Assembly (NCBI GenBank): GCA_015680635.1 | Contig: JAABOA010000166.1 | Coordinates: 1 to 21,704 of the forward strand | Length of the DNA stretch: 21,704 bases | DNA from: Lunasporangiospora selenospora | Lineage: Eukaryota; Mortierellomycota; Mortierellomycetes; Mortierellales; Mortierellaceae | Reading direction: 5' to 3' | Shown: positions 86 to 21,704 of the stretch, in pieces | How positions within the stretch are numbered: position 1 is the stretch's first letter | Layout of the letters: each line of letters begins with the position of its first letter | Notes under the pieces: generated by a model | Databases searched by the model: none | What the model was told of the DNA's origin: nothing | Seen by the model: only the letters and a program-made list of their open reading frames with translations | Program-made: the position numbers and the translations under genes

Positions 86-3000
86 ATCGTCTGTGATCAC
101 ATTGCAGACTCCAAACAGCCAGCTTCAACCTTGCCTCTTCCCGGATGGAACAGCAGCATCCAGACTCAAAGCTTTAGCGATCCCAATAGGTATGGAAGTT
201 TCCTGGGCTGTGTTCCCTTAATTCTTGTAGCACATTCGCGAAACTTCTCTAACCGCCACTGTCACACCACCCACATAGTGCTTCGCCTTTGCGTTTGAAC
301 GTCCGCACTAATGTATTTAAGAAGGAGCTTCAAGAGTATGTCCCAGTCCAAGAGGGCGAACGCCTTCGCATCGAGACTATCATCTACGCCGAGCTGTCGC
401 TAGTTGACTCGACTGCTGCCGAAGGCAGCGTTGTCAAGGGCTATGACTTTGTGCGTTTGCCCAAAGAACTCTTTTACACCGCACCGGATAAGCTCATTTC
501 CAACGAAGATTTGGCCACCAAAAAAATCCTTGATGTGAGCACCTCCCTCATGTGTCCTTCCAACAACTGGGAAGTGGAGAAGGAGACCTGTGTCCGCTGT
601 GCCCGCAGGATGTCTTCCAAGCTCGACGAAGCCGAGAGCCGAGTAAGGACAGCTTTTCTTTGACCTTTTCAATGTCTCTCTGCTTCTCTGTGCACTCTAG
701 CCTGACCATCATGCTCGTATCCATTTTACTAGATTATCCACATGCTGCCAGAGCTCCTCCGCACTGAGGACGGCGACGCATTGATCAACTTTCGCAGCGG
801 CGTTGCTAGCCTTCAGTTCAAGGTCAACTGTTACTGTGGCCACAAAAAAGAGAAGAAGGGCTTTGTTATCCAATTTGACGCCCAGAGTTCTTCTTCACCA
901 ACAATCGCTTCCTTCATGACAACACCTATGATGTTCTATCACGAAAACAAGAACCGTATTGCCATCCGCGCTGCCAAGGCTCAGGCCAAGGCTGAACTCC
1001 AGCTACAGCGTCAACAACAACAGCAACAACAGGAGCTGCAACGTCAGCAACAGAAGCAGATGAAGATTGACGCCCGGAGCCAGAGCAATGTTTCTTCGGC
1101 TTCGTCTGCACGCAACATTGTAAAGTCAGTCAACAGCAGGACAAAGCGCGAACTCCGGACGAGCCACCGAGACTATGGCCCGCTTCAATCCCATAGCCAA
1201 CACCAATCACTGCAACCATTGCAGCCACTGCAGCAGCAGGTCCATATCCCTTCGCCACCCGATTCGTCTTATAGCTCGCCAATCGACTTTACTCCCAGCT
1301 CGGATGTTGCCGAATATACAGGCAGTCCAGATGTTTCGATGACTCCTTCAGGGCTTTCTCAGGACCCGATGGGGTCCCTTTTCCCTGATTATGCGAGACA
1401 GTCTATGGCCATCTCGGCGCCATCTCCAAATCATGATCAGCTCTTATCAGAAGAGCAGTCTGCGTCTAATGTTGCAGTTATCGGCCACATGACCCCTAGC
1501 AACGGTACTACTCGTGGAGGTACAATGGTTACAATTCACGGTTCGGGATTCACAGTTGGTGAGATGATGTACATTTTCTTCGGTAACTCGGAGCCCGTGC
1601 GTGTTGTTCCTAATCATGGCCACGTTATCGAGTGTCGTACTCCCGCAACAACCAAGCCCGAGGCCGTGAGTGTCATTGCCACAAGCTCGCCTGGACTATC
1701 ATCCATCCCAGAAGTAGTCGAGACTCCTCCAGCAACCTTCACCTACATTGACGACAACGAGGTCGAGCTTTACAAACTTGCACTTCAGCGTGTAATGGAT
1801 ATCTCAGGCAAGGATGAGACTACGATGGACTCTGTCCTCGCTCGTCCAAACGACCTTGCAATCTGGCAGGACCTGCTGAGCAGTAGCAGTACAGCAGAGG
1901 GTTCATCATTGTCATCCTCAGTTTCGTCGTCGTTGCCATCATCATCGTTGTCGCTGCCATCTGTCTCCCCAGTCTCCCCAGTCTCCCCTGCATCTTCATC
2001 TTCGTCGCCTCCAACTGCTGTGGCTGCACCCACGTATGAAGAACTGGAGGCTATGGTGCTCGAGTCTTTCAAGCTCGTCGACACATCATCCCCACCGTCG
2101 CCATTGGCTCCTTCGCCTTTGACCTTGCAGGCAACAACTTCATCGCCACCGGTCTCATCGCCACCGTCCTCTCCATCGCTGAACAATGCGCTGCTTTCGA
2201 TTGTCAACAGTACTGGACACTCCATGCTCCATCTTTCTGTTGCACTTCAGTACCTTAATCTCGCAAAGGAGCTTCTCATGCGTGGTGTCGACCCAGGCAT
2301 TAAGGACAAGAACGGTCTGACTGCCTTGGATTTGGCTCGCGTCTTCAAGCACGGAAGAATGATTGATTTCCTCATGAATGATATCGAGTCTTCGTCTGCA
2401 TATGCTAACGAGCAGGAGTATCAACAACAGAGCTCGAGCTCGTTCTTCAATGATGCCGCGAGCGCCCTTCTCAAGAGCGCAAGTCATCAAGATATGCAGA
2501 CTCTACAGAATCAGCTTGGAATGGGTCATTCCCAGTATCCGCTTGTCCCTGATGTTCAATATCGACAGCAGACCATGAACAATGCGTCTCAAGGAGGACT
2601 TCGTCACAGCACCTCGTACGACGATCCCATGAGCCTGGCCTGGATCAATAACTTTAGCCAGATGCGACCTAGTGAGATGGCCTACCACAAGGATATGGCC
2701 ATCCCAGATAGACTACAGGGCGAGTCATTGCCACCACCGAGGATTCAACCAACAGGGCGGACGGACGTGAATGTCCCATCCGCCTTTTCCCGCGTCGGAA
2801 ACATGACCTCGTCGACTGATGTACGACAGCAGCAGTCGAGCCAATACCAGGCTGCTATACAGGCAACTGGAAGGCTGTTTGACGAGCCTTATGATCCGGC
2901 GCGTTCCGCTGATGCAGCTGCAGCTGGCAGCCGTGGTGGTCGAGTATCTCATCCAAGGTACGACAGCTACGGCAGCAGCGGCAGCAGCGGCAGCAGCGGT

Positions 3001-3297
3001 GAGAGCGGTGCGGAGGAGGATGAGGACATGGATCTCTTTGAGGGCCACCACCGCACTGTTGAGCAGGCTGTAGTTCAGAGCAGCCGAAACGATGTCGAGT
3101 CTGAACCGTCGTTGTACCTCGGAGGTCGCCGCGTGGTCTTTGAGCGCCATGACAGCCACCGCCAAGCCTCCAGGAGCGCTGCAACAATGACGACGAATTC
3201 CTTCCAATTGGAAGATTACCCACACTCAGGATCCTATCCTCCTCAGGACCCCTCTAATAACCAGGGCCAGGGCCAAAATGGCTATGAGAGGCACTAA
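86..3297 (+). CDS. Spt23/Mga2-like transcription regulator (TIG + ankyrin), 5' partial
   Basis: Exons are 86-189, 279-642 and 733-3297, joined in consistent phase (3033 nt, 1010 residues plus TAA). The first exon follows a pyrimidine-rich stretch ending in TACAG and has no in-frame ATG, so the start codon lies left of the window. Residues about 35-250 resemble the N-terminal region of fungal Spt23/Mga2, including the motif CYCGHKKEKKGF. A Gln-rich stretch comes next. A TIG/IPT domain lies at about 403-497 (GHMTPSNGTTRGGTMVTIHG). A Ser/Pro tract separates it from two ankyrin repeats at about 647-700 (MLHLSVAL, GLTALDLAR). The remaining roughly 300 residues are low complexity. Known family members are ER-tethered factors controlling fatty-acid desaturase and hypoxia genes after proteolytic release. 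I see no hydrophobic helix here, so soluble action in the nucleus is inferred. CAMTA is an alternative, but no IQ motif is visible. The family call is fairly firm; the target genes are unknown. Confidence 0.82.
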
Positions 3298-5747: not shown

Positions 5748-8700
5748 TTAGCTAGACTTTGCCTGTTCTTGGGGGCTATCACTAACGTCAATATCAATAT
5801 CGACACATGGTGTCATTGCAGTGTCAGGACTGGAGTCACAAGAGTGTCTAGTTGTTGGCTCCTCCGTCATCACTATGACTGGTGGCCCTTTGGTAGGTGA
5901 TGTAGGTCTCTGAGGCTGACCTGAAATGTTCTTAGAAGGATTAGATCCCTCTGATGTCGCAGAATCTTCGGATTTTATCCCCCCTGATGACTCTGCAGGG
6001 CCATTTGTCTGGGTTGTGTCGGTTCTCTGATTAATAGCCGATACCACAGGCGATCGTGATCCGTGTAAAGCATGTTGCTGATACTGACTGGTGGACGATT
6101 TAGAGGATGCCGTTGATTGAAATGTACTTAGTCGCTGTTGCGATGTCATAGTCGGATTACCTTGCCCCAACATCGTGAGTGATGTTGACGATGGCGAATA
6201 CCCAGAAGAAGGCAATCGAAGATGAAATCCTTTGACCACCAGCTCTTTCACTTTGCTGAGAAACGCCTTGGCGGAAGTTTCATCCACAAAAATATGATGA
6301 TTCAGCGATTTCAGAAGTTTGTCTAGCCGTGTCACTGGTTCACCCTTTCTCAGAGGTAATGAGAGATCAACTCGATGTGGGTAAGAGCGGTAATATCGTA
6401 CGAGATCTGTAAGTTGTTGAAAGACTGCTACTGAAAGTTCGTTTGTCCGTGTAATCTCTCTGTCAAATGCATAAGGGGACCCTGCGATACGTATAAATAA
6501 ACAAGGCGCGATGTGAGCACTCCGAGCAATACATGAAGTGGGGGTCTTTCATAGTCTGTGAAAGAGCAGGATGGTACTTACGGCAACTGTTTTGACTATC
6601 CACCGTGTCTGTTATGGAAAGGAACTGAAACTTTGACAGATAGGATATGCTCCTGGGATCAAATGGGCTTACGATCACGCCAACAAACGGTTCCACGCCA
6701 GACTCATGGCGTCGAAACATAAACTGGTGTTCAGTTTGGTTCTCAATGTCTCGTATACTCGGATTGGGTTCAAAAGTCGGATGTGAATGGTACCAGCCCA
6801 CTACAACAAATCCTTTTGACGAAAAGAATGATCTTGCTTCAACGTCGGACTCTGGGTCCAGCTCACACTGGAAGCCAGTGCTAATACTTCGACAAGGAAA
6901 AACTCCAAGAATAAACAGTATCCTTTCGTCCTCATCATACAGCCCACCGAGAAGTCCAATAACCTCTGTCTCTGCCATATGAGAATGAAAATCCATGATG
7001 AGCTAAATGGGCAAGATGAGAAAAGAAGCAATTAGTTTCTTTATGTATGCTAAACTTCCGTAGCCAAATACAAAACAAGCCCATACCATTGCATCGCTTG
7101 ACACCTTGACCCTGAATGGTGCAGGCTTGAGCGGACCAAATTTCCGAAGGGGGATAAGTCGAAATGGGTCATAGCTCTCAACTTCATTGACAAAATATCC
7201 TTCATCTCCGTTATCCGGATGCCCACGTGCTCGGCTCAGATAGTGCTGTGCTCTTCGGTTCTTGGGTACTCTTGCATTCACGCTTCTAACTTCTGAGACT
7301 GCAAAATATCTTGCATTCTGTGCGGCAAGTCTTTCTTGCTCTAGTTCATCCTCCATCTCCTCCCGTGTGATACCATGTCGTTCAAAGTATGCGGCATCGT
7401 CAAGGCTTTCATCATCCGTTAACTGCCGTCTTGGAGTGTCTCTATTTGTTGTCTGTTGGCCGTGTTCAATAACGTGACCTTGTAGGTCTCGCTCATCCAC
7501 CCTGAACATAGAAGAGAGGATTCAGTAAGTTAGTATTTCTCTCTTTCCCTTAAATTCCTGCCTTCAAATCTGTACGAGGCCAGGGTTGTTTCACATTACC
7601 AGTCTCCTTGCTCATTCCGGACACGCCTACGCCGCGAAGAGGAAGCTGACCATAGTGGATCTGTTTCTAGGCTCTCACGAGTGCCAGGGCTTCGGTGCGT
7701 CATGCTGGAGCTGGGCGACAGTGTCCATCCACGTTCAAAGGATGGTCTCCTTCGTCTGGCCCCTCCATTTCGTGGGCGCGCGAGCGACGCACCTGGTGAG
7801 GATGCAGTCATCCCCACATTGATCGCTCCAATTGACTCAAGCCAAGAGTGGACTCTTCCAATGGCGTTAACGTCTCCACAATCCTTTAGACCGGATCGCA
7901 CACTAGTTTTGGTAAGATATGTAGATGGAGATCTTTCCCAGGCCATGAGAATCGTATTCCGAATCCTTTGATATCGCTCAGGTGTCTTGCTCGTCTTGTT
8001 ACAAAAGAACTCGGCGTGGGCCCTTTTTTCTTCTTCGGTGATGATCGATTTGTCTAATATCCGCTGTTTGGCTGTCGGAATTTTGGTCACTGAAGTCGAT
8101 GAAGAAGCTACATCACTGGGACTCAGCGCGGTATCAAGATGTGGTTGTGACGAGTTACTATGTGAACTGCCAGGTCGACCGAGCAACAAGGTTGAGCCGT
8201 AGAGCGACTTTGGTTGAGTAGGGGGAATGGACTGGGTCCTGCGAGGCGGAGGTAATTGTCCATTCCGTGACATACGTTGCAAAGTCTCTGTTCCCAATGT
8301 TCCCTCCTCCTCTTCCTCCTCTTCGTTGTTTTCAATCCTGTTGCTATCGGCATTGTAGCCTCCAGCATCGTCGCTGTCGTATATCCGGTGAGTTCTGACT
8401 CGGCCATTTTGTTTTGTAACCAGTACACTTGGAGAATTGCGGTTAGGTGGCCGTGCATTCATAGTTCCGGCCAGGGTATCATCCTCTTGGGTGGACGTAG
8501 CAAGCATTGGTATCTGTGATGGCGATCGTGCCCCCTGAGCATTTAGTTTTGACGAACCATGTTGATACGAGAGGATTGATAGTGGCGAATTGGTCATGGT
8601 GGTGTCTGCGGGTGTTGGTCGTGAAATTTCCATCCCCTCTTCAGAGGAAGCCACATCTTCTTCATCATAAGAGTTGACATCTGGCCTCAGTTCTGCAACA

Positions 8701-11043
8701 TGGACGGCTCCGAAAGACACAGTGCGTCGTTCCTTGGGAGAATTTGCAATCTTCTCGTTGGTGATATAGTTTAACGGTCCTGCTCTCTGCAGAGTCTGTG
8801 GAGCAAAGTATTGTTGGGCATCCTTTAGAGATGACTTCACGCTTGTCCCTGTCCCTGTACTATTGACACTGCTACTACTTGTACTAAAGGTCGTATTCGT
8901 ATATGGCTCGCCTATCCCCATATTGTTATTATCGAGAAGTGCTGGTGATGATATCGAGACGCGCTTTTGATGATTCCTTGGCCTCAAGGATTCAGTAGGG
9001 TCAACATCTTCATCCATAAGGTGGTCTTCCTGACCGGAATCGCTTTCAGGCTCGCTTGATAGACGAGAACGGGAGGATGCAATCGAAAATGGTGATATGG
9101 AGCGAGATTTCGACTTTTGGGGCTGAAATGGAGGTAGTCCACGAGAAAGCCTAGTCCTTGTTGAGGACTCTTCGTCCGTGCTCTCGATATCGATATCAAT
9201 ATCCTCATCCTCGTCCATACTAGAGATAGTTCGTTGTGTGGGTGTCGAGTAAGGTGAAGACATACTTCCAAATAAAGGTCTGGGTCCAGGGCTAGGTGTA
9301 GTTCGACCAAGAGAACCAGAGCGAGAACCAGAGCGAGATCCAGACTTTGCTGACAACGAAGGTGATTTGGACATTGACCGGTCTTCATCATTATCAGTAT
9401 CGTATCCACTCTAATTTAAAAAAGTTAAGATGTAATTTAACAATCAGCTCAGACTTTAGCACTAGTGAGAGCGAAAAAATAAAAATATATAAAAAAACTT
9501 ACCGTGGCTCCAAACTCAGATCCTGTAAAGTCATCGTTGCCGGATTCTGATGTGATGCTACGTGCACGACGACCATGTCTTCCGAAAGATTCATACCCAC
9601 TTTCAGCTCCAGCGCTGGCCTCAATTCGTTTGACTTTCATACTACGGGGTTGCCGCCTTTTGGTCGTTCTGTTCGAGCCGCCCTCGTCGTTAGGAGAGCT
9701 TGCTGCGGTCGGGTACCTCTTATCCAGACCTTCACCATCGCTAGTGTTGGTTGACATGTCAGGCAGCATCTGTCATTTATGTCAAGAGCTGGCGTTTGTT
9801 AGATTGGTCGCTTTAGGAAACGCACCTGAGCGCGAATATTGTTGATGAGAAGAGGGACCCTTACCCTGTCTGATACCGCCAAGTGTCGTGCATGATTCTT
9901 GACTTGGAGTGGATTTCTTGTCCCCACAACAGCAGCAACAGCTTTCCAGTTTCCATAACCATGGAGAGTCTATCGCATTAACTTCAGATATAAGTATCCA
10001 GCAACATTGAAGCAAAAAAGGATCCAGAAATACAGTGTTACTTACAATGCCCTGACGCAATCGATCATCCTCTTCTACAGTCCAGCGAGTGTTGTGGGAT
10101 GGAAGGTCGGCCGAGGAGAGCTTAGCACTGAGCCTTGAATCTGTATAATCAATCATTATATCGAAAGTTCAGAATGAAATATAAAAATATATAAAATGGC
10201 AGTGGTGACACATGATCAAAAGATGTAACGATTCTTACCTTCACTAGCTGTCCGTTTACTTTGTCCAGATCGTTCATCTGAACTCTTCCTCTTCTTGGAA
10301 TCACCGCCTTTGACTTTTACAGGGTTTGCTCCGCCTCTGAATATTGACTGCGATGAACGTCGTTCTTGAATAATATGATCCGGCGATCTGGCGCGCGATG
10401 AACTATTAGCAACGGATGTCGACTGTCGGCGGGAAGAAGAAACGATTCCTGATTTTCGTCCTGAGTAAAACTCTTCTTCAGCAAGCATGCTTTCAATCAT
10501 CTCACGAGATTTCTCATCCATATCTCCTGCAGCAAAGCTAGACTGTGCATGATACTGTAACAATAGATGAGAGATCCTCAGCAAATGTTAGCATTCACAC
10601 CCGTTGTCATTGAGAAACTCAGCAGCAGCAAGCTCAAGATTTATCATACATCTTGTGTGACCCAGTCCGGGATCTGAAAGTCGTCCTCAATGTTACCCTC
10701 GGTACTAGATCGTGCACAAGAAGCAATTGTGCAACATCAGTGTCTGGCTGTGGGCTGTATAGCATAGAGAGAGACGCCTGAGATTATTTTCAACCTACTC
10801 CAATACATCTGGGAACTGGCTATTGAAGCCGCTGTGTAACGTATTGTCGATTGCGTCACTGGATGCAGTCTCGCCTATTCGATCAGACGATACAGACCCG
10901 CGCCTAGAGACAGATGGTGAGGCTGAAGTTGCCTTGGTGCGATTTCGACCTGGCCAACTTGAACCGGGGTGGGCTTCAATGACCTCTGGTTCTGGATCAT
11001 CCCCATCGATGTCAATATCAACTTCAATATCTTCCTCGGCCAT
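5748..11043 (-). CDS. MYSM1: MYSM1-like histone H2A deubiquitinase (SANT-SWIRM-MPN+)
   Basis: Ten exons read downward: 11043-10799, 10704-10650, 10554-10239, 10140-10046, 9969-9865, 9769-9503, 9410-7600, 7501-7087, 7002-6582 and 6481-5748. They total 4464 nt, 1487 residues, with all phases consistent. The acidic N-terminus ([15 protein letters not shown]) and the motif [11 protein letters not shown] resemble animal MYSM1. A SANT/Myb domain spans about 224-270 ([20 protein letters not shown]). A disordered Ser-rich insert of about 540 residues follows. SWIRM lies at about 820-893 ([14 protein letters not shown]). The MPN+ domain starts near 1104, with Glu1116, HSHP at 1175-1178, Ser1185 and Asp1188, so the JAMM zinc motif is intact. 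A Ser/Thr/Pro-rich tail ends the protein. In animals MYSM1 removes monoubiquitin from histone H2A to activate genes. The protein is nearly twice the length of the human one, mostly from disorder. The exon 1 donor is the least certain: GTAGGT was preferred to GTATTG because it suits the better acceptor at 10706-10705. Confidence 0.9.
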
Positions 11044-14145: not shown

Positions 14146-17100
14146 ATGTTCTGGAAACAGAACAAAGGCACCGGCGAGTCTCCATCCCAGAGTCTGGGCG
14201 ATAGCCCATCCGCACGCCTCTTAGGCGTCCCCTCGTCCTCTAATTCTTCCTCGCCTTCCTCGAGTCCCTTGCTCACCCAGCAGGACGACCAGGTCTCAAC
14301 TATGGCCAGTACTGACGTATCATCAAGCCGGATGAGGCGCACACCGACAGATGATTCGCAACAGAAAGACTGTTCAAAAGGTGGGGATTCCGAATGCAGT
14401 CATTGCAATTGCACCTCAGCTTGCCCTACACCCTGTGTGCTCGTTCGTCTCTAACACGGCATCTCTTTACCTTTCTCTCCTTCTTTCGTATTCTATCCTT
14501 GGATCGCTGTACTTCTAGCTCAGCGACGCTACTTTTGTGAAGAAGATGCTAGCCTTTCACGCTCCAAGACATTCTCTGCCGCAGGGAAAATAAGGTATTT
14601 ACACCACGAACCGAGTTGAAGGACATTGTCCCCGTCACTCAATTGCTTCGCTAATGTGAATATTCGCACTCGTTCTCACTTTTGGGCATTAAAAAGAAGC
14701 GGAGCACAATCGTAAGTCTACTCCTACTCGTTGGTTGCCATATTCATCACTCACAGCAAAATGAGCTTGGTAAAGTGCATGTTTGATTCACACTACCCAT
14801 TTTTGCAGCAAAATACAGCCAGCCGAACTCCCGGAAAAGACTTCTAGCTTCAAGGTAAGGGGTCATACTTTGCCGTAGTAGGTGTCAATGTCGCCGTGTC
14901 ATCAAGTAGTCGCCGCCGAAGCTAACATTGTCATGGTCCCTGTAATTAGCTTACAGCCGAGTTCTTTGACTATGCAGCCGGTCTTTACACTGTGCACTGG
15001 CGAGTGAGAGCACCCGATCCATTTCGGTCTCCAGGGGGTTTCCGTTTCCTTACCAACATCTCGTACGAGGTAAGTCATATGATGAATTGATAGCGCAAAA
15101 CGTCAATGCATGATATGCGATGTCTGGTCTAACCTCTGTGTTTCTGACGCAATGCCTTAGCTCGAGTCGGATAGTAGTGGAAGTTTAGATGTCACTATGC
15201 CAAAGCATAAGCTGAGCGCACTACGTAAGTCACAGCTAGTCCATTCATAGTCCATTCATAGTCCATTTATACTCTATTCATAGTCAATATCTGTGAACAA
15301 GATGCATATCTAACTAACCATCGAAACTGTGGATACTTGACGTTACAGCTCCTGGTCACTGGCACAATTTCACTTTAGAAGAAAAGTTGATTATTCTGCC
15401 TCACGAAGGATCGTCTAAGGTCCAGGTCAGTCTTAGTAGTAATGACAGCGTGCGAGGAACCGACTACGCTGGGTTCATGATTGAACATGTCGAGATTAGA
15501 CCAACCCATATCTCTACTTTATGGCAAGGTAACGATCCCACAATTTTACTTTTCCTAATGAGCCGACTCTGGTTTTGATTTCAAATGTGAATCAATATTA
15601 ACGCTGTCATCAATATTAGCTGGAGTACGCACCATTGGCGTCCCGCGTAATAGCATACCCAACTTTTCGATTGATACCTCAAGGGCCAGGCCGCTTGGAC
15701 CTGAGATGTCCTTTATCGATTCACGCACCCCAATCAGTTGTATCGCGGTCTCAAAATCTAGTCAGTTTTTAGCCACGCTATCGATTAGCAACGATGTTGC
15801 CTGTGTCCGGGTCTTTGATATGGGTATTATCAAAAACCCAACTATTCCATTTAGGAACTTGAAGGATCTATGCCGACTCTCAGCCGTTACTACGATTGCA
15901 CACGAGGGTATTAACAAGTTAGCCATCGGTCTGGCAATCTCGTGTGCTGGCGATCAGATTGCAGTTTTCCAGGAACCAAAAATCGGACAGTGGAAGGGAG
16001 GATATGAGGTTGAGAAGGCAGATTTCCCATTTCGACTCTTCAACAATCCATTCGTGACCAAAGACTCTTTTACGGTTGAAATAGACAACCCAGTCGACAC
16101 ACCAGCGAGTGGTGTAAACAGAAGAGGCGGAAGCAGTAGCCCCAGTGGACCCGACGATCCATTCTCTACATCAGCACTCAACCTATTTGCACTGCAAGAA
16201 GTCGAAGCCATTCCCGAGTTACTCAAGTTCTTTGTTGGCTTTGGAACTTTCTTACCCGAGGCTGAGAAGGGCGACTGGGAAAAGAGAGATATCAACGCCG
16301 CACTGACAGGCAGCACCGATGAAGAAGAAACGAGCAGAGACAAAAAGAACGTGAAAAAAACGTCGCTTTTCGTCGCTTGCAATGGTCTAGTACTCGACGC
16401 GTTCGAGATTTCTCAGGAACAAAAGTGGAGTCGACGCCACACCATCGAATTATCTGAGCTCACTCCAACTATTTCGAGACGTATCACCTGCAAGATGATG
16501 ATGGATTCGCTTGGTAGCAACAGCTTCATGTGGCTCGAGGACAGTGGACAGAGTTGCACCCTATGGGGGCTGATGAACGGATCCAATATTTCCCATATCT
16601 CCAGTATTGAGAATGCGCGGTTCAACGGTCTAGCTTATCGAGGTCACAGCAAGATGGCAATATCACCTCATGAGTCCATCATTGCCTTGGCGAGCGTCGA
16701 TGGCAGTCTTACAACATATTTTGCAAACACAGGAATGGCCATCGATGACCGAAAGTTCCCTGGTTACAGGATAGAGCATATCGAGTTTTATGCTCTTGAC
16801 AATCAGCTCCTTGTTATTCTTCGCGACAGCAATACTTTTGAGCTCAAGGCTAAAATCTTAGACACGCTCCAGCTTAAGTCAGAAATTGATGCCAACAATA
16901 TTCCAATCCCGACTTCAGGAAGGTCCATCCTTGCATTTTTCAATGCTCGTGGATATTGGCAACGTGGGATTGTTTGTGAGGTGGATGGAAGCAGAGTCAA
17001 CTGTTATATCGCATACCAGCCCTTGAGCAACAAGATTACCAAGCATGGCGAAAAGGTCGAAAGGTCTGATGTACAGGATATTGCCTGCGAATGCTGGTTC

Positions 17101-20100
17101 AACAAAACCATTTTGTACACTTTAAGAACCGCCTATCACAAAGAGTTACTGCCCGAAGGAGAAGGGGTGTCTTATTGGGTACACCGTGTTGAGATGATTG
17201 AAGAGAATCAAGAGACGGGAGCGAGCCGCATCTTATTTTCATTTATTCCTGAGCCATGGATGCGAGTAACGACTACTGATGTTGCGAATCCTGACAATCT
17301 AGTATCTGCTTATTTCGTGCCATGTGGAACAAGATTTGCGATCAGCGGTGTTCAAACTCTACAAATATGGAATCTTCCAACCCGAGAGAATGCCAAGTGC
17401 ACCCTCCAATTCTTCTGGAGTCAGCCCCGAGAAGAGAAGGTGTCCGAGCGAGGGGGCATCGCGTATACATCTGGACGCGTTCGGGATTATTACCAAGAAG
17501 TTCTGAGTTTCAGTCTTATCGTGGATTTGGAAACAGGAAACACAGCCTTGGAAGTTCGAATAAACGACCGACAAAAGATGAAAGTCGTTGCGGTTCCAGG
17601 AATCGGATCGATCGGTGCTCGACATGCTATCGTCTACTGTTTCAGGAGCGTACACCTGCTTGCTGCCGCTTATGCATATTCGTTCCGCGAAAGCAAAAAG
17701 ACCAGTCGAGAAGTCTCACCTCCAAACACGCTCACGTATGATGATCACGCCGATGCAATTATCCGGTTCACTCGCGAGCATATCAATCGCATGCTTTCGC
17801 TATCATCCTACAGTCCATGGAAAAAAGGGTCTGCTTTGGCAACAACCAATACTGGAGTAAAACCCCCTCCCAAGAACCCAAGGACTCGCCCAAAGAGAAG
17901 TCAGGGTGGCAACAATCAAAGCCCTGGTAGCGACGGCGCCGTGGATGATGTCGCCCACAATCCAGACGGTGGACCAAGTCAGGCATCAGGAAGTACCGCG
18001 CCAATGTCTGTTCCGATACTCCCTCGGCAAAATATCAACCCATTGACTGGATCCCCAGTTCAAGACTATGGGTCCTACATTGCCAGTCACCCAGAGCCCG
18101 TAGCCTCATCACCCGAACCCGAGCCTGTCCCTTCCGCGGCCTATTCTGCGAATGTGATAGGATTTGATGTTCTTATCCACGGAAATTCTAACAAATATAA
18201 TCGGGAGGATGACGACGACAGGATTCACGACCGGATAGATATCTCGCAACTTAGGCCGGAGAATTTGGTGGACCTCGACGATGAGACCCCTGTCCAGAAC
18301 GATGATGTTAAAGTAAATGTTGTTACTCCTGGAATGCAACCCCAACCTCAGCCTCAGCCTCAGCCTCAGCCTCAGCCTCAGCCCCAACCCCAGCAGCAGC
18401 ATCAGATTCGTGCCCCAGCGCAGGCAACACCTTATTCTAATAATTCACCTGTAGTTACGGTCTTGACATTGCTCCTGGACCACCCTCATCTCAAGCGAAA
18501 CAACCATTTATTTGTGGAGGGGCTCCTACGGACGGCACACGGAGACTGGATTCCTCGCGATTTAAAGGTAATCAATCCTATCAAACGCGCTATCGATTCT
18601 GGAAATGGTACTTTGGTGGGAATCTTTGTCGACTATTGCATCAAGAACGCAAAGAAGTACCACCCTGCATACCTTTTGCCAGCGATCCAATGTCTCGACG
18701 AGCTATCTGATCGATATCCAGATCTTCTCAACGATATGTTCAGGAGGGCTTCTTATATCCCAGCCCACAACAGAAATTATGTTTGTTCGCATGCTATCAT
18801 TGCCAACCACGACTACAGCGGGTGGTTAAAAACGAAATTGAGATTCTGGAACATGTTTTCAAAGGAATACAGCTTTATCAAGTCCAACAACATCAATGAT
18901 TACGAGAAGCCGGTGTTTCACTTGAGGTCACAGTTGCCTTACAGACTTTCAGGCTTTCCGATTTTTGGTGCCAGCAGGGCTTCTAAAGATGAGAAGCGGA
19001 TCAAATTCCCTGTTGAACTTGCGCCAACTAATACTGACGATGACAGCCCCAAGAATGGAGGTGTGGGCGACCATTCACATATGATCTATGTGGCACCATT
19101 CCCAAAGCTCTCCAAGTATGCTCCATTCAAAAGGCTGATCTCGATTGGTCCAGACAGTCGATCGGGATTTATTGATATTGCCGGTCAGGATTTCTTTGAT
19201 AGTCCTGCCATGGTTGCCACACTCGAGTTCAAATGGTAAGAGATTCAACAACAACAACAAAGTTTGGTAGCGCTCTACACGGTTTGTCAATCAGATATTT
19301 AATTTACCTTGCTTTCCTTCTCTGTCACTTCGTAGGCACACATTTGGCTTCTTCTTCTGGCTCATGCGGTTTATCTTGGTAATACTATTTTTCATACTTG
19401 TAGTCATCATCACGACTGCACAAATTGTAGCCGTTAAAGATGTCACAAGCGTGGATACCCCACTCAAGGAAATTAAAGACATGTTCATGGAAGACTGGCG
19501 CCCTGTATTGTATGCAGCAATCACCGTGGGTGGGCTGCTGCTACTTTATGAGGCATACCAATTTACTTACTCTCCGAGAAAGTACATCAGGTAATTTTAG
19601 TTGCTCTGCCAACGAAGCGAGGGTTCGGGGGTCATTAAACTGTGGCAACAAAATGGTATATGATTTAACTTGTGCTCTTCCTAATCTTTTTTTTTCTTTT
19701 TTTGGCATTAGCTCGCCATACAACTATATGGATTTGGCTGCCTACACATTACCTGTTATTGGATGCGCCATTCTTTTGTCAAAAGACGATTATGATCAGA
19801 TATCAAGCGAAGCGCTTTTCGAGGAAGCTGCTAAATCCCCTGATGGGGCTGGACCAAAGCAGATCTGGGTTTTAAGTTTTGCTATTTTGGCACTGTACTT
19901 GAATATTGTAGGTCTTCTCTCTCTCTCTCAATTCCCATGACTGCACGCATATAACCAACAAGGCATGAATGTTCAATCTAGTTACTGAATAATTGAAACA
20001 TATTTCTTACACTGATAGCTATTTGAGCTCCGAGTAGTCAGACAACTTGGTATTGTCGTCAACATCATATTGACTATTTCTCGAAAGATTGTCTGGTTTG

Positions 20101-21704
20101 TTTTGGTGTTCTGTATGTTCATTATTGGGTTCACGCACGCGCTACTACATCTGTTACATACCCGTCCCTACAAGGAGGGAGAGACGCCCGAGGAACAGTT
20201 CCCCACCAATCTCGTTAGTGCCTTGTCAACCACGCTCTTCTTGGTGGTAAGTAGTCGATAAGTTTATGTTCTTTTAGCGGGTATCTTAATGACAATGATG
20301 CCAACGACGTATTTAATTATCCGATTACATCGCCTTTGACATACAAAATAGGCTGGAAGATATGATCCTCTGAATGACGAGTTTGGGAAAAAAGACATCA
20401 GTTTCCACCTCATGATGGTTGTATTCTTCTTCTTCACAGTCATCTTACTTCTCAATATTCTTATTGGTAAGCTTTCAGTCCTATGTGATTAGGGTTACGT
20501 TCTTTAATTGTCTGTTGTTGCAAATGATAACTCACATTTTTCATCTTAATTAAATCTGCTCGGGTCCAAATCTTTAGCGCTCATGAACGACGCTTTCACT
20601 GAGAGTAGCAGTCTCGGGAAACTAGCGTGGTTGAAGCAGTGGTCTGAGGTGATTGCGGGTAAGTAGAGCTGCGACCTTGATTTAAAATGAAGTATCAGCA
20701 AATTAGACGGTGACAACTTGCGAGCTCAGTTGGGCATGCCCTCATTGATTTATCCTAACCACCTGTTCCTGTTTTACTGTTACTTTTTAATAGAGGTTGA
20801 AACGTTCCTTATGGGTCCACGAGATAGACAAAATCGCGATTATTTTCCCGACTATATCTATTATGGTGCGAATGAGCGATATGCAGAGGTCTATGAAACC
20901 AAGTTTTCGATCTCAAGCAAGACTAACTTATCAATTGAGAATCGGTTCTTGATCGATACCATGACATATGAGCAAAACTCGACTCAAATCGGTCAGAGGA
21001 ACATTCATCGTGATGTTGTTCGACTTCAACAGGCACAGGACGATTTTAGGAGCGAGGTGGCTCGATTGACAGAGGTTGCATTTGCTTGCATCTCCCATGC
21101 TCATGCCAACCGTGACCGGGACGAAGGCGATGGGTCAACAGAGTATAGTGACCAGCAGTCGACTGTGGACCAGACTCCTTCACGCGGAAGTGGTATTCGA
21201 CATGGCATAAGATCTAGAGCAGGTACTGGCACGAGTAACGTCAGCTATGATTCAACCGTAATTCCAGCAAGCCCTACCTTCCCTATCCCAGGACGAACAC
21301 CCTATGGATCTGCTGCTTCGAATACTCCCGCATCATCATCAAGGGAGACTCGGCCAGGTAATTCTGGAAGGGGACGCATCCTGAGGCCTCCAAGTGGATA
21401 CGATGACTCAAGAGTTACGCCGCCTGCAGCTCCTGCTGGCGGACCTATACTTGAGTCCTCTCCGCTACCCCCGCCGCCTCAACCGATAACCGAGACTGTT
21501 ACATCTGCCCCAATAACAGATACACCGTTGAGCACAGGTCCAATTGAGTATGACCCATCTGCGCCCAGTCAGTATACAGACGAATCTGATCAACAGGCAG
21601 ATGTAAGCGAGACTTTGCCACCAGTGTCTGCTATTCCTGGCCCAGCTCCTCCTCCTCCTCCAGCTCTACCCAGTTCATCTAGAATGTCGGCTCCTGCACC
21701 ACCC
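14146..21704 (+). CDS. Beta-propeller/TRP-like ion channel with PP2-like N-terminal domain, 3' partial
   Basis: Exons: 14146-14380, 14519-14594, 14697-14711, 14809-14854, 14950-15069, 15161-15224, 15349-15528, 15620-19235, 19336-19590, 19712-19907, 20019-20246, 20352-20466, 20578-20658 and 20794->21704, giving 2046 residues with no stop. Residues 1-124 are disordered. About 125-235 form a putative beta-sandwich ending GFMIEHVEIRP, reminiscent of phloem-protein-2 domains. A degenerate WD-like propeller spans about 275-940 (for example VQTLQIWNLP near 830), then a disordered linker. A helical, weakly ankyrin-like pre-channel region lies at about 1185-1445. Six hydrophobic helices follow: S1 near 1451-1482, S2 1506-1528, S3 1539-1559, S4 1587-1610, S5 1614-1648, S6 1693-1720. 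Between S5 and S6 is a pore-like TTLFLVAGRYDPL, and after S6 a TRP-box-like KLAWLKQWSEVIAEVE. A coiled coil (about 1810-1845) and a Pro-rich tail complete what is visible. It is probably a cation channel; selectivity and membrane are unknown. Exons 1-3 are the least certain part. Confidence 0.8.
14697..14711 (+). other. Candidate 15-nt microexon of the channel gene
   Basis: AAGCGGAGCACAATC lies between an AAAAAG acceptor and a strong GTAAGT donor and keeps phase 2 on both sides. Using the AAG three bases later as acceptor would give 12 nt in the same frame. The donor is convincing; the acceptor has a weak pyrimidine tract. Confidence 0.5.
15238..15290. repeat. 11-bp minisatellite in channel intron 6
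   Basis: AGTCCATTCAT occurs at 15238 and 15249, with variants at 15260 (one change) and 15271 (two changes) and a partial unit at 15282. It lies inside the intron 15225-15348 and lengthens it to 124 nt. Confidence 0.85.
18337..18396 (+). repeat. Hexanucleotide repeat encoding a Pro-Gln tract
   Basis: CCTCAG/CCCCAA-type hexamers encode about nine Pro-Gln dipeptides followed by a short Gln run, at residues about 1152-1171 of the channel protein. It lies in the flexible linker between the propeller and the pre-channel region. It is in frame, so unit gain or loss would change linker length without a frameshift. Confidence 0.9.
19247..19260. repeat. Short (CAA)n run in channel intron 8
   Basis: Four CAA units lie just after the donor at 19236, inside the intron that precedes the first membrane helix exon. 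Confidence 0.7.

Follow-up and report, generated by a model that had tools for sequence, protein, structure and literature searches.

A single Mortierellaceae gene predicted to join a WD40-type propeller to a TRPV-like channel domain

In animals, TRPV channels, which have an ankyrin head, act as sensors of heat, osmotic conditions and pain. A long reading frame in the fungus Lunasporangiospora selenospora raises the question of whether a channel body of this kind has been combined, within one gene, with an entirely different head. The window analyzed here, a stretch of 21,704 nucleotides, corresponds to one entire contig (C139) in a genome record comprising 475 contigs and 8.2 Mb. Splice and frame analysis revealed a reading frame of 2041 codons in 13 exons that does not reach a stop codon; the 3' end of the gene and its stop codon are missing because the window is the whole contig. 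The parts that we assign to this gene are collected in Table 1. A first-pass annotation of the locus had proposed the fusion of a plant-lectin-like beta-sandwich, a propeller and a TRP-like channel. Its overall interpretation as one gene with a beta domain, a WD40-type propeller and a TRP-like channel has held, while the identity of the first domain as PP2 is not established, the proposed glycan sensing is conjectural and the propeller is not seen to extend to residue 940.

Table 1. Coordinates of the gene and its parts in the window, with the basis of each assignment
Feature	Position	Strand	Basis
Entire gene up to the contig end	14146..21704	+	splice sites, frame; P0001 aligned to residues 1-1839
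Exons 1-5	14146-14380, 14519-14594, 14809-14854, 14950-15069, 15161-15224	+	splice analysis
Exons 6-9	15349-15528, 15620-19235, 19336-19590, 19712-19907	+	splice analysis
Exons 10-13	20019-20246, 20352-20466, 20578-20658, 20794-21704	+	splice analysis
N-terminal beta-strand domain, residues 119-238, exons 3-6	14850..15521	+	strands in P0001 model; PP2 slices
WD40-type beta-propeller, residues ~243-711	15625..17031	+	28 strands
Additional beta-rich region with helices at its end, residues ~720-961	17056..17781	+	12 strands and helices in P0001 model
Poorly conserved linker, probably disordered, residues 976-1180, with Pro-Gln run	17824..18438	+	coverage and identity of homologues
Ankyrin-like helices and TRPV-type linker region to pre-S1, residues 1183-1447	18445..19339	+	P0001 1100-1725 model
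Intron in conserved FKW codon directly before S1	19236..19335	+	GT at matching codon and phase in three paralogues; P0071 spans junction
S1-S6 channel domain, residues 1448-1720, exons 8-12	19340..20606	+	Ion_trans; TRPV4 match; TRPV structural match
Filter motif G-R-Y-D, residues 1674-1677 (TRPV4: G-M-G-D)	20355..20366	+	HMMER alignments with TRPV4
TRP helix with conserved W1728, residues ~1723-1743, exons 12-13	20613..20810	+	ungapped TRPV4 alignment from S6 through TRP helix
C-terminal beta-strand YIYYG, residues 1759-1763	20856..20870	+	strand 569-573 in P0001 1100-1725 model
Pro/Ser-rich C-terminal tail, cut by contig end	20871..21704	+	open frame to contig end

With respect to its type, the channel is the part most readily recognized. 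It is the only part of the window that Pfam finds over its cut-offs (Ion_trans, E 9.5e-14, 51.6 bits vs. a cut-off of 25), and the six helices expected of this family are also present in the AlphaFold model of a homologue, P0001. Both AlphaFold models used in this study are derived from this homologue, which is about 51% identical to the chain encoded in the window. The Pfam scan of the window also listed Lig_chan, overlapping the pore, with an E value of 1.5e-4 and below its own cut-off. The window's own sequence matched TRPV4 with an E value of 4e-8, from S4 to the TRP helix only. The best 60 of the 90 sequence matches listed were all of TRPV type, as were all 50 structural matches listed by VIA and 49 of the 50 matches listed by Foldseek. 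When the N-terminal alignment, the rows of which are whole proteins, was turned into a profile, it found TRPV4 at 3.5e-12 and ranked TRPM2 (1.2e-7) behind it, though ahead of some TRPV rows; for P0071, a far paralogue from the same species, taken alone, TRPM2 (E 0.1) ranked before TRPV2 (E 2.6). Directly after S6, a TRP helix containing the conserved tryptophan aligns with TRPV4 without a gap. The claim of a complete six-helix channel with a TRP-like helix is thus borne out by the family match, the TRPV4 alignment and the P0001 model.

Upstream of S1, the model of P0001 residues 1100-1725 predicts helices at 16-142 and strands at 162-165 and 216-220, and many of the TRPV structural matches have their start towards the C-terminal end of the ankyrin domain. 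Helices account for no more than about 130 residues in the stretch of this model that separates the disordered linker from the linker strands. No ankyrin family was detected in the window at E<=5, and the 18 families that a scan of 17 homologues listed at E<=1 did not include one. The N-terminal domain of six ankyrin repeats that is characteristic of TRPV channels is not present in these data.

The selectivity filter constitutes a second point of departure. The motif G-R-Y-D was aligned with G-M-G-D in two of the three HMMER alignments from one search as well as in a separate search with the window, and was offset by two places in the remaining alignment of the three. Among 62 rows (72 aligned rows from which nine gapped and one misaligned were left out), the position of the TRPV filter methionine is occupied by arginine in 55 and by glutamine in seven, and where TRPV has its filter aspartate, 58 of the 62 rows show an acidic side chain (Asp or Glu). 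P0071 retains G-R-Y-D-P. Model confidence around the filter is moderate (block mean pLDDT 65). The GMGD-type filter of TRPV1-4 is lacking. The conserved arginine is the strangest feature of the channel; we know of no characterized TRP with arginine at this place in the filter, and it could lower or abolish cation permeation.

It is chiefly because of this arginine that pore function is in doubt. The pore might not be that of a Ca2+ channel at all: the filter arginine would then render it non-conducting or selective for monovalent ions or anions, and the protein would mainly act as a membrane scaffold or regulated subunit. We consider this unlikely, since the acidic residue at the aspartate position and the strong conservation of S6 and the TRP helix are what a working pore would lead one to expect, although the prevalence of arginine among the aligned rows, the G-R-Y-D-P of P0071 and the large, binding-type N-terminal head would all fit such a role.

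Another explanation concerns the family to which the channel belongs. TRPY1 is the characterized fungal TRP (PMC3410928), and precomputed database annotation assigns PF23317 (YVC1_C) to 17 of 39 homologues, which would suit a vacuolar channel of the TRPY1/Yvc1 type with extra domains rather than a TRPV-like one. This reading is disfavoured and, in our judgement, holds little probability: the sequence matches and VIA matches listed are of TRPV type, and PF23317 was absent from the window at E<=5 and from the 18 families that the scan of 17 homologues listed at E<=1. A separate scan for PF23317 found nothing either, and its controls were likewise without match. Sequence matches and models thus place the channel closest to TRPV, and we describe it as TRPV-like. 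It would work like TRPV but is not filed as TRPV, because two of the features that define TRPV, the six ankyrin repeats and GMGD, fail.

What occupies the place of the ankyrin head was assessed on the N-terminal AlphaFold model of P0001. Its 28 strands fit seven four-stranded blades, suggesting a seven-bladed propeller, and the propellers matched by fold include Ski8, SCAP, G-beta, Atg18/WIPI and processome proteins. Taken by query length, the TM-scores that Foldseek gave for this model are low (0.11-0.25), the Pfam WD40 model yielded no match over its cut-off in the window (E 0.84), and propeller sequence models were weak or below cut-off in the homologues. The predicted fold is that of a WD40-type propeller. 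The first-pass annotation had drawn this propeller across residues 275-940 and had made its reading depend on that fold; the model does predict a propeller, but one that ends near residue 711, and residues 720-961 are predicted to form a separate region, beta-rich and helical.

The domain preceding the propeller contains eight strands at residues 27-140 of P0001 in the AlphaFold model. Family searches were performed with 17 slices of this domain, i.e., 16 from among 25 homologue slices plus that of the window. PP2 (PF14299) was the most frequent match (six of 17 slices, best E 0.0038), and CopC was matched in three of the 17. In the three slices for which the PP2 matches were examined in detail, scores amounted to 14.4, 14.5 and 17.5 bits, all below the Pfam cut-off of 25, and the matches spanned profile positions 57-148. 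The window's own slice gave no PP2 match and a weak CopC match instead. A profile of all 17 slices found no match in the PDB at E<=10, and most of the matches listed in the fold search with the N-terminal model fall within the propeller. As the scores fall under the cut-off and the window slice remains unmatched, PP2-likeness is a lead and not a result. The model thus supports the beta-strand domain of the earlier proposal, which is probably a beta-sandwich and PP2-like at most, and the plant-lectin identity is not established.

Whether head and channel indeed belong to one gene depends on the gene model. All 12 introns have GT...AG borders, including the two, 15529-15619 and 19236-19335, that had been singled out earlier, such that the single spliced frame proposed at the outset is confirmed over all 13 exons. 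In 13 of 39 homologues residue 1 aligned with residue 1 of the window protein, and the start codon is therefore supported; the least certain part of the gene model is the splicing of exons 1-3 (residues 78-119). A single open exon of 3616 bases (15620-19235) encodes the propeller, the linker and the ankyrin-like region up to near S1, and P0001 aligned with the window protein as a single piece. The putative donor of the intron before S1 (19235/19336) falls within the W codon of FKW in phase 2. Three paralogues encoded elsewhere in this genome, L020, L021 and L022 (contigs C223, C5 and C337, with YKW in place of FKW), likewise show a GT after the conserved [FY]KW codon and in equal phase; their matches to the family are about 19-35% identical. 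P0071, an annotated protein from contig C337, is continuous across this junction. The [FY]KW scan additionally picked up two unrelated [FY]KW triplets.

The distribution of the architecture was studied in 70 distinct homologues, 39 from a first protein search and 62 from a second one with a diverged paralogue as query; the three protein searches performed detect only relatives with shared five-residue words, so that members in Glomeromycotina or Mucoromycotina may have escaped them. A third search, with the C337 paralogue as query, returned P0071 and P0072 only. Over 96% of its length, the C337 frame shows 100% identity with P0071, a Lunasporangiospora selenospora protein that shows the same domain order with Ion_trans and weak propeller matches. 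By a 60% coverage test, all five folded parts (the beta domain at the N-terminus, the propeller/post-propeller region in its two parts, the ankyrin-like stretch and the membrane part) are present in 51 of the 70 homologues, and 19 are without at least one part. Its recurrence in these 51 homologues, and again in the far paralogue P0071, shows that this architecture is not an isolated case. Species names are attached to 68 of the 70, all from genera that we take to belong to the Mortierellaceae; P0032 and P0070, both JGI-derived, carry no species name. In a FastTree topology of 72 rows, read for branching order alone, the window protein adjoins P0001 among the long homologues, and several species possess extra, more diverged copies.

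Median identities, calculated for the first 29 homologues of the first search with the number of usable rows varying by region, were highest for the TRP helix (76%, residues 1723-1760), followed by the beta/helical region (60%, residues 741-975), the ankyrin-like/linker region (58%), the membrane part (54%) and the propeller (53%), each with 29 rows, and by the N-terminal beta domain (48%, 27 rows). Values were lower for the C-terminal tail (31%, residues 1761-2041, 27 rows), residues 1-118 (28%, 25 rows) and the linker (23%), for which only six rows were usable at a median coverage of 37% of the 29 rows; the long disordered linker described earlier accords with these figures. Regional conservation in the alignments lies far above chance, by which a chance open frame is ruled out. 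Among further Ion_trans loci of the genome, those on C69, C262 and C267 gave no family match at E<=1e-4 (C108 lay outside this test), the one on C175 was matched weakly in one search and not in another, and the upstream exon of L021 found nothing better than E 0.12 in the PDB.

A false join, in which a WD-repeat gene and a separate channel gene downstream of it have been read as one, is rejected here and regarded as very improbable, on account of the shared exon, the 51 complete homologues, the pre-S1 position held in common with diverged paralogues and the same domain order in P0071, even though the joined frame is known from genomic sequence only, the channel is the sole part with a Pfam match over cut-off and 19 homologues are without at least one part. 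The beta domain, the propeller and the channel accordingly belong to one gene, as first proposed.

We thus consider it likely that the product of this single Mortierellaceae gene is a cation channel of TRPV type whose gating proceeds through a propeller head in the cytosol. Sequence and models establish a single frame, propeller and channel folds predicted in a close homologue, a TRP helix and conservation across related genera. Most of the ankyrin head of animal TRPV would be replaced by the beta-strand domain and the WD40-type propeller, which a flexible linker would join to the short ankyrin-like/linker region. By analogy with TRPV biology, four subunits would form the membrane pore with the N-terminus in the cytosol. 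WD40 propellers widely bind partners in this compartment, and the head may bind a cytosolic partner, the most likely candidates being proteins, lipids or ligands. Such binding, or pulling, could then act by way of the linker region and pre-S1 on the TRP helix and open the gate. The permeant ion would mainly be Ca2+, or mixed cations would pass, with selectivity altered by the filter arginine. A much bolder idea, to which we attach a low probability, is that the Mortierellaceae possess a clade of TRPV-derived channels in which a head made of the beta domain and the WD40 propeller has taken over from the ankyrin sensor, and in which four filter arginines form a ring that confers permeation unlike that of any known TRP, excluding Ca2+ or even passing anions, with the propeller coupling a cytosolic signal to this unusual ion flow. 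A conserved fungal group combining a TRPV body with a propeller head and a filter arginine would offer a natural experiment on head gating and selectivity, and the channel group would supply the Mortierellaceae, as soil fungi, with a candidate sensor system.

Among fungi, a survey of pathogenic species sorts TRPs into TrpY1-like, Trp2 and Trp3 groups (PMC3410928). The channel studied here shares with TRPY1/Yvc1 and Trp2/Trp3 the six-helix TRP design; it differs in that its nearest solved relatives are TRPV and that YVC1_C was not found in the window and homologue scans. In the accessible portions of further work, a 'TRPV-like' group of 32 genes is reported for Rhizophagus irregularis (PMC10234402) and TRP channels of early-diverging fungi are described as duplicated in Neocallimastigomycota and Glomeromycotina (PMC8778642); a propeller head is absent from the TRP accounts in these portions. 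The Rhizophagus group, known here without domain architecture from the part of that source available, is possibly the same broad group (PMC10234402). The literature searched, with incomplete coverage of subscription papers, contained neither a propeller-headed TRP channel nor a functional description of the present one, which we regard as a conserved variation on an established type of channel. The likeness to PP2/Nictaba (PF14299) consists in an all-beta domain matched in six of the 17 slices, the difference in scores of 14.4-17.5 bits, below 25, and an unmatched window slice. With the WD40 propellers of Ski8, SCAP, G-beta, Atg18/WIPI and processome proteins the head shares its predicted seven blades and fold matches, whereas its sequence stays below the Pfam WD40 cut-off and is joined to a channel. 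The closest comparison is that with TRPV4, TRPV1-3, TRPV5/6 and insect Nanchung/Inactive: the S1-S6 fold, the ungapped stretch from S6 to the TRP helix including the conserved tryptophan, the strands before S1, the C-terminal strand and a helical ankyrin-like region before the linker are held in common, whereas the fungal protein has a beta-strand domain and a WD40-type propeller in place of the six-repeat ankyrin domain, G-R-Y-D vs. G-M-G-D in its filter, and a long disordered linker and tail.

The genome that contains the propeller-channel gene of the window also holds three diverged paralogues of it, L020, L021 and L022 (on contigs C223, C5 and C337, respectively), in which the ankyrin-like/linker and channel stretches were matched and all of which carry a GT, a putative intron donor, at the same tryptophan codon preceding S1 (FKW in the window, YKW in the paralogues). 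In the upstream exon of L021 the propeller matches are weak only, and P0071, the protein annotated from the contig of L022, combines an Ion_trans match with weak propeller matches.

In some species, tandem copies of the family are suggested by adjacent locus numbers or source contigs of identical size, as among the members from Mortierella sp. AD094 (P0040, P0044 and P0053; P0003 and P0046) and Mortierella sp. AM989 (P0036 and P0042).

Additional features of the window
Feature	Window position	Residues	Strand	Source
SPT23/MGA2 DNA-binding domain and IPT/TIG, plus weak ankyrin matches, in one open frame	733-3297		plus	Pfam scan
JAB/MPN ubiquitin-protease domain	6463-7002		minus	Pfam scan
SWIRM domain	7596-9410		minus	Pfam scan
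Pro-Gln dipeptide run, linker of the propeller-channel gene	about 18340-18390	about 1147-1165	plus	

The Pro-Gln run is a candidate length-variable repeat. The plus-strand frame at 733-3297 probably encodes a transcription factor of the SPT23/MGA2 type. JAB/MPN and SWIRM are encoded in adjacent reading frames (6463-9410); these two domains are paired in histone H2A deubiquitinases of the MYSM1 type.
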